From: Flavobacteriaceae bacterium
GTDB taxonomy: Bacteria; Bacteroidota; Bacteroidia; Flavobacteriales; Flavobacteriaceae
Length of the DNA: 58,112 bases
Assembly: GCA_014239275.1 (NCBI GenBank)
Contig: JAAZZF010000001.1
Coordinates: 1 to 58,112 of the forward strand
Direction: 5' to 3'
The notes beneath the pieces are model-generated. The model saw nothing but the letters and a program-made list of their open reading frames with translations. It was not told the origin of the DNA and searched no databases. The position numbers and the translations under genes were made by a program. Shown piece after piece: positions 52,293 to 57,351 of this stretch; position 1 is the stretch's first letter; each line of letters starts with the position of its first letter.

Positions 52293-52298
52293 TTTTTA
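52259..52298 (+). terminator. Intrinsic terminator between convergent genes
   Basis: ACACCTCCG (52261-52269) pairs with CGGGGGTGT (52281-52289), with one G-U pair, around an 11-base loop, and runs into a long T tract (TTTTTTTTT). Read the other way the hairpin is also followed by a short T run, so it can end the leftward formylglycine-generating-enzyme gene whose stop lies at 52296. Confidence 0.85.
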
Positions 52299-53396
52299 AG
52301 ACTTCACATCCATTACAGTTCTAAATCCAGTATGCATTGAACTTGAGTCTGGAGTGCTTTTCATTCTCATAGAATTTCGAAAACCACTACAATAAGAATC
52401 ATTACATAAAAAACTTCCGCCTCTCATAACTTTTTTTGGGCTATAAGGTTCCATAGGATCATAACTATTTTTTGGACCTTTAGGATTAATAGCCAATTTT
52501 TCTGAACTCATGTTGTAGTAATCTGAATGATACCAATCAGAACACCACTCCCAAACATTTCCGCCAAGATCATAAAATCCAAATCCATTGGGCTGAAAAG
52601 ATTTAACTGGAGCAGTGTAGTAAAACTTGTCTTTCATTTTATTATTTGAAGGAAATTTTCCCTCCCAAATATTAGCTTTTAATATGCCTTCATATACTGG
52701 TTCATTTCCCCAACTATATATATTGTTTATTAAACCCCCTCTTGATGCATATTCAAATTCTGCTTCCGTAGGCAATCTTTTACCTGTCCATTTACAGTAT
52801 GCAATTGCATCATCCCAACTAATATGAACTACAGGATGATTTCCCTTATTTTTTATATTACTATTTTTTCCAAAAGGACTTCTCCAATTGGTCTTTTTTT
52901 CCAACCTCCACCATTGAGTGTAATCGTTCAAATTTGTAACTTCAGTTTCATAAAAAATTAATGAGGCTGGCGACAATAAGCTATCATGAGGTTTTGGTGT
53001 TCCAGGAGGTACTATTTTTTTAATTTCATTCCAATCTATTGCCTTTTCAGCAGTTGTTATGTATCCTGTTGCATCTACAAATTCTTTAAATTGATCATTT
53101 GTAACTTCCGTTTCATCCATCCAAAATGAATTTACTATAACTTTATGTTTTGGAAACTCATCTTGTTTTGCCTCATTATTATCTCCACCCATTTCAAACT
53201 CTCCACCTTTAACAAAGATCATCCCATTAGTATTTCCAGATAAGGCAATTTCAATGTCATATGAATTTTCTGATAAATTTCTTGTGATAGTATTGCTTGG
53301 CATGCAACTATGATCTGATGACGCTTTAGGTTTTTTTGTAATTGTATCACAAGAAAAATAACATAAAAGAGAAAAAATAATAATTCTATGTTTCAT
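52296..53396 (-). CDS. Formylglycine-generating-enzyme-like lipoprotein
   Basis: The 366-residue protein has a lipoprotein signal (MKHRIIIFSLLCYFSC, Cys-16) and an FGE-sulfatase domain (about residues 57-363; MIFVKGGEFEMGG, FWMDETEVTNDQFKEFV, CKWTGKRLPTEAEFEYASRGG, GGNVWEWCSDW). The active-site pair of true FGEs is retained as GGSFLCNDSYCSGFR (C331 and C336, the same spacing as in the human enzyme), unlike the many homologues that lack them. It probably converts sulfatase cysteines to formylglycine. A sulfatase with a CAPAR site is encoded 2.4 kb upstream. Confidence 0.88.
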   Translation of the reverse strand: MKHRIIIFSLLCYFSCDTITKKPKASSDHSCMPSNTITRNLSENSYDIEIALSGNTNGMIFVKGGEFEMGGDNNEAKQDEFPKHKVIVNSFWMDETEVTNDQFKEFVDATGYITTAEKAIDWNEIKKIVPPGTPKPHDSLLSPASLIFYETEVTNLNDYTQWWRLEKKTNWRSPFGKNSNIKNKGNHPVVHISWDDAIAYCKWTGKRLPTEAEFEYASRGGLINNIYSWGNEPVYEGILKANIWEGKFPSNNKMKDKFYYTAPVKSFQPNGFGFYDLGGNVWEWCSDWYHSDYYNMSSEKLAINPKGPKNSYDPMEPYSPKKVMRGGSFLCNDSYCSGFRNSMRMKSTPDSSSMHTGFRTVMDVKS

Positions 53397-53791: not shown

Positions 53792-55462
53792 ATGACTTTA
53801 CAACTTTGGATATGGCTAATGATCGGGTTAACTTTTTCACTATATATAGGAATAGCCTTTTGGTCTAAAGCAGGATCAACAAAAGATTTCTATGTGGCTG
53901 GTGCCGGAGTATCGCCAATAGCAAATGGAATGGCAACTGCAGCAGATTGGATGTCTGCTGCTTCTTTTATTTCAATGGCTGGGCTAATATCTTTTATGGG
54001 ATATGATGGATCAGTTTTTTTAATGGGTTGGACAGGTGGATATGTTTTATTAGCTCTGCTTTTAGCGCCTTATTTAAGAAAATTTGGGAAATTTACTGTT
54101 CCTGATTTTATAGGTGATAGATATTACTCTAATACTGCAAGATTAGTTGCAGTTTTATGTGCATTAATTATATCATTTACTTACGTAGCAGGGCAAATGA
54201 GAGGCGTAGGCTTGGTTTTTTCACGTTACTTAGAAGTAGATATTAATACTGGTGTTGTAATTGGAATGGCAATAGTATTATTTTATGCCGTATTGGGAGG
54301 AATGAAGGGGATTACATATACCCAAGTTGCACAATATTGTGTATTAATTTTTGCTTTCATGGTCCCGGCTATTTTTATTTCTATTCAAATGACTGGTAAT
54401 CCAATTCCTCAACTTGGTTTTGGTTCCCAAGGTGCTGATGGGATTTATCTTTTAGATAAACTCGATGGTCTAAGTATGGAGTTAGGTTTTCACGAATACA
54501 CATCAGGATCCAAATCTATGTTGGATGTATTTTTTATAACAGCTGCACTTATGGTTGGAACAGCAGGGCTTCCACATGTAATCGTGAGATTTTTTACAGT
54601 TAAAAAAGTTAGTGATGCTAGAAAGTCTGCTGGTTGGGCACTTCTATTTATTGCTATTTTATATACTACTGCACCAGCAATAGCAGTATTTGCTAGAACT
54701 AATTTAATTGAAACAGTTAGTGAAAAAAAATATGATGAATTGCCTGGTTGGTTTGACAATTGGGAAAAAACAGGTTTATTAACTTTTGATGATAAAAATA
54801 AAGATGGTATAGTACAATATGTAGCTGATCCACAAATAAATGAACTTACTATTGATAGAGATATAATGGTAATGGCAAATCCTGAAATAGCGGAATTGCC
54901 AAATTGGGTAATTGCTCTTTTAGCAGCAGGTGCCTTAGCTGCTGCACTCTCAACCGCAGCAGGTCTACTTTTAGTAATTTCATCTTCAATATCGCACGAT
55001 CTAATAAAAAAAATAATTAAACCTGACGTTTCTGAAAAAGGTGAACTAATTGCTGCTAGAATTTCTGCCTTTTTTGCAGTTATTATGGCTGGATATTTTG
55101 GAATTAATCCTCCTGGTTTTGTTGCCGCAGTTGTAGCACTGGCTTTTGGTCTAGCTGCCGCTTCTTTTTTTCCCGCTATTGTAATGGGTATTTTCTATAA
55201 AAGAATGAATAAGGAAGGAGCAGTTGCAGGAATGTCAACTGGACTTTTACTTATGCTTTTTTATATGACAAAATTTAAATTTGGATGGTTTGGTGGTGGA
55301 ACAAGTGAAGATTGGTGGTTTGGAATATCTCCTGAAGGTTTTGGTACTTTTGCAATGTTAACTAATTTTATAGTTTCACTTATTGTTTGTCATATAACAA
55401 GTGATCCTCCAAAAGAAATACAAGATTTAGTTGAAAAAATAAGAATACCTTCAACAGAATAA
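53792..55462 (+). CDS. Sodium:solute symporter, VC_2705 subfamily
   Basis: The 556-residue protein has about 13 membrane helices and subfamily features: FYVAGAGVSPIANGMATAADWMSAASFISMAG, a GGMKGITYTQVAQY segment, and LAAALSTAAGLLLVISSSISHDLIKK. A large hydrophilic loop near residues 310-370 contains an EF-hand-like DDKNKDGIVQY sequence. The substrate is uncertain; relatives range from acetate-like organic acids to unknown solutes. It pairs with DUF4212 (5 bases) and precedes the DenV-esterase fusion by 7 bases. Confidence 0.92.
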   Translation: MTLQLWIWLMIGLTFSLYIGIAFWSKAGSTKDFYVAGAGVSPIANGMATAADWMSAASFISMAGLISFMGYDGSVFLMGWTGGYVLLALLLAPYLRKFGKFTVPDFIGDRYYSNTARLVAVLCALIISFTYVAGQMRGVGLVFSRYLEVDINTGVVIGMAIVLFYAVLGGMKGITYTQVAQYCVLIFAFMVPAIFISIQMTGNPIPQLGFGSQGADGIYLLDKLDGLSMELGFHEYTSGSKSMLDVFFITAALMVGTAGLPHVIVRFFTVKKVSDARKSAGWALLFIAILYTTAPAIAVFARTNLIETVSEKKYDELPGWFDNWEKTGLLTFDDKNKDGIVQYVADPQINELTIDRDIMVMANPEIAELPNWVIALLAAGALAAALSTAAGLLLVISSSISHDLIKKIIKPDVSEKGELIAARISAFFAVIMAGYFGINPPGFVAAVVALAFGLAAASFFPAIVMGIFYKRMNKEGAVAGMSTGLLLMLFYMTKFKFGWFGGGTSEDWWFGISPEGFGTFAMLTNFIVSLIVCHITSDPPKEIQDLVEKIRIPSTE

Positions 55463-55469
55463 GAGGTTT

Positions 55470-56636
55470 ATGACAAGAATAAATTTGGTTAATCCGTCAG
55501 AATTAAAAGACCAACATCTTATAGCAGAGTATAGAGAAATAACTATGATTCCAGCAGCACTAAATCGTACATTAAATAGTAAAATTGGTTTAAGGAGAGA
55601 AAAAATAAGCAAAAAATATACTCTTAATTCAGGTCATGTATATTTCTTTTATGATAAAGGAGAGTATCTATACAATAGATATCAAGATATTATAAGAGAG
55701 ATGAAAAATAGAGGATTTAAACCTGATATTAACAGAAAATTTCCAACTAGAATTTTTATAGATAATAATTTATACAATGATTGGATGCCAACTCTAAATG
55801 ATTTAAAAATAATAAGGAAAAGGATATCAGAGAAAATTGCTATGAAACCAAGTTGGTATAATAAAACCAAAAGTATTATTACAAAACCTTTAATATTAAT
55901 GTTCTTCTTTTTAAACACATTAAGTTCTCAAAATTTAGATTTATTTGAAAAAGAAATTTTTATTCAAGGAAAAGACACTCTAAATTACAGAGTTTTAAAG
56001 CCTCAAAATTATGATTCAGAAAAAAGTTATCCTTTACATCTTTTTTTACATGGAGCTGGAGAAAGAGGAAACGATAATGAATTACAACTTGTTCACGGAG
56101 CTAAATTATTTTTAAAAAAAGAAAATAGAGAAAAATATAAGTCTTGGGTAATTTTTCCGCAATCTCCTAAAAATGATTGGTGGGGAGGTTATTATTCTCC
56201 TTATGAATATGATTATCAAGTTGAAAAATCTGATGCTCTAGGTTTAGTTATTAAGCTCATGGATCATTTAGTTAATCGTAAAGATGTTGATAAAGATAAA
56301 GTATATATAAGCGGATTATCCATGGGAGGTTTAGGAACTTTTTCAATACTAAATCAAAGGCCTAATATGTTCGCTGCTGCAACTCCAATTTGTGGTGATG
56401 GTGACCCTAATTCAGTCGATAATTTTGCAAAAAAAGTTAATATTTGGATTTTTCATGGCTCTGCAGATAAAGTTGTTCATCCAAATCAATCATTAAAAAT
56501 GGCTCAAGCCATAATTAATGCTGGAGGAAATCCAAAAGTTACCATTTATGAAAATGTAGAACATAATAGTTGGGATGTAGCTTTTGCAGAAAAAGATTTT
56601 TTAAAATGGATACACTCAAAAACTAAAAAAAATTAA
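55470..56636 (+). CDS. Fusion of a T4 DenV-like pyrimidine-dimer DNA glycosylase and a secreted-type esterase
   Basis: The 388-residue frame joins two unrelated parts. Residues 1-135 form a complete Pyr_excise domain like T4 endonuclease V: the N-terminal TRINL with nucleophile Thr-2, the LIAEYRE segment with catalytic E23, GHVYFFYDKGEYL, and the closing EKIAMKPSWYNK. Immediately after comes a signal-peptide-like stretch (TKPLILMFFFLNTLSSQ, 138-154). An alpha/beta hydrolase of the prolyl-oligopeptidase/esterase type follows (about 155-388; HLFLHGAGERG, GLSMGG with S284, HGSADKVVHP with D333, H365). A hydrolase-only start at ATG 55842 is possible. The gene follows the symporter by 7 bases. Confidence 0.85.
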   Translation: MTRINLVNPSELKDQHLIAEYREITMIPAALNRTLNSKIGLRREKISKKYTLNSGHVYFFYDKGEYLYNRYQDIIREMKNRGFKPDINRKFPTRIFIDNNLYNDWMPTLNDLKIIRKRISEKIAMKPSWYNKTKSIITKPLILMFFFLNTLSSQNLDLFEKEIFIQGKDTLNYRVLKPQNYDSEKSYPLHLFLHGAGERGNDNELQLVHGAKLFLKKENREKYKSWVIFPQSPKNDWWGGYYSPYEYDYQVEKSDALGLVIKLMDHLVNRKDVDKDKVYISGLSMGGLGTFSILNQRPNMFAAATPICGDGDPNSVDNFAKKVNIWIFHGSADKVVHPNQSLKMAQAIINAGGNPKVTIYENVEHNSWDVAFAEKDFLKWIHSKTKKN

Positions 56637-56640
56637 TAAA

Positions 56641-57351
56641 ATGAATCTAAAAAAATTAACATTTCTAATATTAATACTAAATTTTATTATGGACAATAAT
56701 TACTCACAGGATATAAATATAGCTGGAGGTGGGAATTTACAGGATTGGGCTAATTTAAATAAATATCAAAAAAACAATAAAGAATTAAAGAAAATAATTG
56801 AACCTAATAGAGTAGTCTTTATGGGGAATTCCATTACAGAAGGATGGAGTTTTTTTAATAAAAAATTTTTTATTGAAAATCCTTTTGTAAATAGAGGAAT
56901 TAGTGGTCAAACTACTCCACAAATGTTAATTAGATTTAAATCTGATGTTGTAAACTTATCCCCTAAGAGTGTTGTAATTTTGGCTGGCATAAACGATATA
57001 GCAGGAAATACTGGACCAATTTCGATTGAAAATTCTGCTGAAAATATAATTTCTATGGCTGAAATTGCACTGGCTAACAATATTAGTGTTTTTATATGTT
57101 CTACACTTCCAGCATTAGATTTTCCTTGGTCACCTGGATTAAATCCTGCATCAAAAGTGATTAAACTTAATAAGATTTTGAAAGATTACTGCAAAAAAAA
57201 TAATCTCAAATATGTTGATTATTATTCATTTATGTCCGATGAAAATGGAGGCTTAAAAGTTCCTGAATATACTTCAGCTGATGATCTAGTTCATCCAAAT
57301 AAAGCAGGGTATAATGTTATGGAAAAAATTATTTTAAAAGCTTTAAAATAA
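56641..57351 (+). CDS. SGNH/GDSL hydrolase, exported
   Basis: The 236-residue protein has a signal peptide (KKLTFLILILNFIMDNNYSQ) and the SGNH hydrolase blocks: FMGNSITEGW (the catalytic serine block, with Asn replacing Asp of GDS), FVNRGISGQTTPQ, LAGINDIAG, and DDLVHPNKAGY with the catalytic Asp and His. Such enzymes remove acyl or acetyl groups from sugars or lipids. It lies 4 bases after the fused esterase, so the two ester hydrolases are probably co-transcribed with the symporter. Confidence 0.9.
   Translation: MNLKKLTFLILILNFIMDNNYSQDINIAGGGNLQDWANLNKYQKNNKELKKIIEPNRVVFMGNSITEGWSFFNKKFFIENPFVNRGISGQTTPQMLIRFKSDVVNLSPKSVVILAGINDIAGNTGPISIENSAENIISMAEIALANNISVFICSTLPALDFPWSPGLNPASKVIKLNKILKDYCKKNNLKYVDYYSFMSDENGGLKVPEYTSADDLVHPNKAGYNVMEKIILKALK

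Follow-up and report, generated by a model that had tools for sequence, protein, structure and literature searches.

In this marine flavobacterium, a DNA repair domain of the DenV type (T4 endonuclease V-like), for which the nearest relative found is viral, has been joined in frame to an esterase that still carries its former signal peptide. The fusion occupies a single open frame at 55470-56636 on the plus strand of the window, by which we mean the whole 58,112-nucleotide stretch of DNA analysed here. The frame is stop-free throughout and encodes 388 aa, a chain that we read as a candidate CPD glycosylase/AP-lyase domain followed by a predicted esterase. The window comes from a draft genome of 1.64 Mb (G000; 132 contigs, 86% completeness), in which it is contig 1. 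Taking the comparative evidence together, we consider it probable that denV was captured, fused in frame to the esterase gene and later lost from one sister species, and that the fused gene yields one polyprotein that is split at its internal signal.

Domains and setting of the fused frame

The DenV domain spans residues 1-135 (55470..55874, +). Pfam assigns residues 1-88 to PF03013 (Pyr_excise; 1.5e-15, 57.8 bits against a curated cut-off of 23), a PDB sequence search matches residues 1-131 to T4 endonuclease V (2end, 1.7e-21), and in the alignment to 2end Thr-2, Arg-3, Gln-15, Arg-22 and Glu-23 are all present, with the catalytic codons for Thr-2 and Glu-23 at 55473 and 55536. Proteins of this family are usually single domains of ~135-155 aa, a size that is typical rather than defining, and the fused chain deviates from it with its 388 residues. 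The esterase domain comprises residues 154-388 and the stop codon (55929..56636, +). It is matched over approximately residues 170-373 by the alpha/beta-hydrolase families PF00326, PF01738, PF02230 and PF00756, and over residues 171-370 by a Thermotoga-type thermostable esterase (3doh; 3e-38 in the PDB sequence search, 9.2e-19 with Foldseek). The hydrolase set is complete, with Ser-284 (in the motif GLSMGG), Asp-333 and His-365 encoded at 56319, 56466 and 56562.

Between the two domains lies a predicted signal sequence at residues 131-153, NKTKSIITKPLILMFFFLNTLSS (55860..55928, +), which is called on homology and hydropathy. A basic stretch is followed by the hydrophobic core LILMFFFLNTL and then by S|Q at the predicted cleavage point, S153/Q154, and the segment aligns with the N-terminal signal peptides of relatives, which end in A/S|Q. 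Here the segment is internal, behind DenV, and not at the N-terminus as would be expected of a secreted esterase. A sequence-only reading of this DNA had proposed that a DenV domain and an esterase with a signal peptide are fused in frame, with Thr-2, Glu-23 and the Ser/Asp/His set intact, and the Pfam and PDB matches, the alignment to 2end and that of the signal segment bear it out on each of these points. Its further statement that the DenV part ends exactly where T4 DenV ends holds approximately, the fused part running to about residue 135 and T4 DenV to 138. An AlphaFold model with a mean pLDDT of 71, computed at an alignment depth of 13 sequences, has two domains and low confidence at 130-157. 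The best 50 Foldseek matches covered the hydrolase part alone, with none to the DenV part.

The frame sits in a conserved row of genes. Upstream is a Na+/solute symporter (SSF) gene (53792..55462, +; PF00474, 2.8e-55), found next to the esterase in all members of the genus that have the locus, and a 7-nt gap, GAGGTTT (55463..55469, +), separates the symporter stop from the DenV start. Downstream, a GDSL-type lipase/acylhydrolase gene (56641..57351, +; PF13472, 7.1e-24) adjoins the esterase across the genus. A formylglycine-generating-enzyme-like gene with a lipoprotein-like start (52296-53396, −; PF03781) lies beside the symporter pair.

Inheritance of the fusion and a denV scar in a sister species

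The window genome is fragmented, and an assembly or binning artefact, either an indel or a chimaera, might have joined two separate ORFs, an option that the sequence-only reading had raised. However, a second species of the genus, G007 (CABXGL010000009.1, isolate AG-319-A09), whose genome was assembled separately from the window genome, encodes the same 388-aa chain at 92% aa identity, and the DNA of the two aligns over 4143 bp at 94.6% identity with zero gaps. The isolate name is in what we take to be the style of single-cell genomes, and the record title says MAG. Since both assemblies would need to contain the identical error, an artefact is in practice refuted and deserves almost no weight; further arguments against it are the purifying selection on both parts and the denV scar that the sister species G016 bears at this position.

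Between G000 and G007, the one genome pair on which these values are based, the DenV part has a dN/dS of 0.118 and the mature esterase one of 0.111, so that both parts are constrained, and equally so; the neighbouring GDSL gene and symporter give 0.10 and 0.04. The signal segment has a dN/dS of 0.82 over few sites. Signal peptides often drift in sequence, and this one keeps its basic and hydrophobic character and its S|Q in both species. Judged by these comparisons, the fusion is real and inherited, and both of its domains are under purifying selection.

The position of the join can be estimated from what is known of the two genes when they stand apart. Because viral DenV tails read ...KIAMKPNWYRKSKS... 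and unfused esterases begin ~18-20 residues before the cleavage Q, we place it at about residues 135-137 (55872..55880, +), where the KTKS of the DenV tail passes into what used to be the signal peptide of the esterase, and in these alignments the DenV stop and the esterase start are both lost at the join. The sequence-only reading had instead seen the trace of an old stop-start pair, removed by a one-base change, in TTTAATATTAATG at 55889-55901. The off-frame TAAs and the in-frame ATG do exist there, but the junction lies some 5-9 codons upstream, and we reject this stretch as a junction relic since G007 reads ATA for the ATG and the stretch aligns with the signal core of unfused relatives.

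Relatives without DenV indicate the state before the fusion. The locus is present in 16 other genomes of the genus, with the order SSF symporter, esterase, GDSL gene in 16/16 and a DenV domain in 0/16. In 15 of the 16 the esterase start overlaps the symporter stop or is only a few bases away from it, and the esterase has an ordinary signal peptide, e.g. MKKITLIIALFFISNITA|Q; the sixteenth is G016, discussed below. The unfused order is likewise found in more distant marine relatives (L048-L051), and no further PF03013 match was found across the 22 genomes of the genus. The sequence-only reading had set against a fusion the case of all close relatives encoding the two proteins as separate ORFs in the same flanks, and of such relatives we found 0: one has the same fusion and the others have the esterase without a DenV domain, a distribution that supports a real and fairly recent fusion, which the same reading had listed among its options. 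More than 60 other DenV loci were examined and 0 contain a fused DenV, free DenV ORFs in viral and other loci being at most 156 aa long; around the DenV matches in 395 genomes of the order and 395 of the phylum (Bacteroidota), open frames reach at most 171 aa, the window genome excepted. Our literature searches found no earlier description of a denV-esterase fusion, and they yielded no paper about polyproteins with an internal signal peptide. Within the reach of all these searches, DenV-esterase is a new domain architecture of two known families.

The third species, G016 (PACX01000014.1, isolate NAT161), lacks the greater part of denV. Its esterase starts at ATGAATCTAAACTGGTATAAAAAA (MNLNWYKK), preceded by AAATTACT, and the start codon, to which there is no usable alternative, is the equivalent of Met-125 of the fusion, an in-frame ATG (55842..55844, +) within the DenV motif KIAMKPxWY. 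About 37 nt around the G016 start resemble the denV 3' end, which reads AAATTGCTATGAAACCAAGTTGGTATAAAAAA in G007 and AAATAGCTATGAAGCCAAATTGGTATAGAAAA in the viral gene L033. The match to the fusion and L033 genes scores 20-23, where shuffled sequences reach at most 15-17; a comparable denV-like match is absent at that position in eight other relatives. A tree of the symporter, esterase and GDSL proteins has the form (G016,(G000,G007)), with support of 1.0 and 0.995.

Since the esterase of G016 opens with codons that match the 3' end of denV, it is most likely descended from the fusion, the remainder of denV having been lost. G016 could instead have received a denV fragment alone by transfer. 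Its place as sister to both fusion carriers would also fit a pre-fusion state, in which the esterase start resembled a denV tail by chance and denV was later joined there by recombination, but the matching stretch belongs to DenV, is present in free viral DenVs and occurs at the esterase start of 0 other relatives. An independent resemblance over ~37 nt at just that position is unlikely, and we regard a pre-fusion G016 as improbable. Given descent from the fusion, the most economical order of events puts the fusion ahead of the split of the three species and the G016 deletion after it. We therefore propose that a phage-type denV entered the symporter-esterase-GDSL row in an ancestor shared by these three marine flavobacteria, which are close relatives, and that the in-frame join removed the denV stop and the esterase start and spared the core of the signal peptide. 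In two species the whole fusion would have been retained, with purifying selection acting on each part, and the third would have deleted denV except for its last codons, leaving an esterase that starts at a denV-inherited ATG.

Viral affinity of denV and the photolyase loci

The nearest relative found for the DenV part is a gene on a marine viral contig (L033/L055; IMGVR_UViG_3300009790_000069), with 84% aa and 83% DNA identity, and annotated phage records have at most 48% identity. In the DenV tree L055 is sister to the fusion (support 0.995), and both fall in a wide viral group to which some flavobacterial free copies also belong. Phage families are represented in the surroundings of L055 denV, where genes for thymidylate synthase, peptide deformylase and a carbamoyltransferase are also found; the carbamoyltransferase gene at 6335-8035 of L055 is Nol-like (phrog_1601). 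Free-standing DenV genes with 71% identity occur in other flavobacterial genomes (L052, AG-343-M05; L105, G077), and the one in L052 is situated among host-type surface-protein genes. A 2007 ocean survey (PMC1821046) reported that UV-repair genes in surface water, DenV among them, are highly diverse. The viral affinity of denV is evident from sequence comparison, and from it we infer the direction of transfer, from virus to host; with one closest viral contig known, passage from host to phage is a less likely course.

If the carriers had lost photolyase, this might explain why DenV was retained. Matches to the photolyase family PF03441 were found in 19 of the 22 genomes of the genus and in neither G000 nor G007; for comparison, PF03441 loci are present in G016 (L118 and L119; G016:C16:64000-78000 and G016:C4:112000-124000). 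One photolyase locus is interrupted by contig ends in G000 and has no sequence in G007. At the second locus the gene is absent from G000, where the contig runs through the site without a break, and G007 has 1.35 kb of unmatched sequence there. In G019, a genome without DenV, a two-gene photolyase cluster is cleanly missing (G019:C14 ~119169-119250), leaving 81 bp between the flanks; the missing cluster adjoins a UDP-GlcNAc carboxyvinyltransferase-like gene. Because the first locus is incomplete in G000 and G007, and because G019 lacks photolyase there without having DenV, the link is only suggestive, a lead and not a result. A fuller account, in which phage gene capture produced a polyprotein with an internal signal peptide between a cytoplasmic repair glycosylase and an exported esterase, and photolyase loss made DenV the main route for UV dimers, seems to us unlikely.

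Processing of the chain and comparison with known systems

If the chain is made as one polyprotein, DenV would fold in the cytoplasm with Thr-2 exposed by methionine removal, the internal signal would insert N-in/C-out, and the C-terminal part would be translocated. Signal peptidase I would then cut after Ser-153 and free the esterase, and the outcome would be a periplasmic or exported esterase together with a cytoplasmic or membrane-tethered CPD glycosylase. Topology, cleavage and the two enzyme activities are predictions here, but both species retain S|Q and a hydrophobic segment with positive flanks, so export of the esterase probably continues. Rhizobial cytochrome b/c1 offers a parallel, in that its precursor is cleaved at an internal signal.

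Ribosomes could also start at Met-125, which would give a 264-aa esterase precursor with a 29-residue signal peptide while the long form supplied DenV. The G016 esterase ORF, with no usable start except the ATG homologous to Met-125, indicates that an N-terminus of this type is evidently workable as a signal peptide. In a start-context model built from the window's ORFs only, however, the upstream context of ATG-125 is poor, with a score lower than that of any of the window's 49 long-ORF starts and equal to the median for internal ATGs, and since Met-125 belongs to a DenV motif and is present in many viral DenVs, it is not kept for the esterase in particular. We treat internal initiation as the rival reading, less probable than not. 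Alternatively, the full-length chain might escape cleavage. The product would then be a bifunctional protein anchored in the membrane, its esterase in the periplasm and its DenV domain held at the cytoplasmic membrane. Segments with a basic stretch ahead of a hydrophobic core can serve as signal anchors, and both catalytic sets are intact, but the core is short for a stable anchor and the A/S|Q cleavage point of unfused relatives is kept as S|Q in both fusion carriers, so we think an uncleaved product unlikely and prefer a polyprotein cut at its internal signal.

With its unfused relatives, two carriers under selection and a sister with a scar, the locus is a well-documented example of a gene being captured, fused and then partly lost again, and in it a viral UV-repair gene appears to have become fixed in ocean bacteria. 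Because the partners are expected on opposite sides of the membrane, it also provides a test of how bacteria handle an internal signal peptide.

T4 endonuclease V (DenV; PF03013; phrog_1183; 2end) is colinear with the fusion over residues 1-131 and shares Thr-2, Glu-23 and the C-terminal EKIAxxPxWY, but it has Arg at residue 26 where the fusion has Met, as do the marine viral relatives compared, and its chain ends where the fused chain continues into the signal sequence and esterase. The viral DenV L033/L055 differs in being encoded by a separate gene of 141 aa, which lies next to thymidylate synthase and further phage-type genes. The esterase 3doh and the C-terminal domain of LC-Est1 (3wyd) belong to the same alpha/beta-hydrolase family, with LHGAGERGNDN-type and GLSMGG motifs, but neither has a DenV domain, and 3doh has a different stretch before its esterase. 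The esterases of the same genus (e.g. L013, L015 and L016) are the same gene in the same place, between the SSF symporter and the GDSL gene, and they begin, without DenV, with the ordinary N-terminal signal peptide (MKK...) that in the fusion has come to lie inside the chain.
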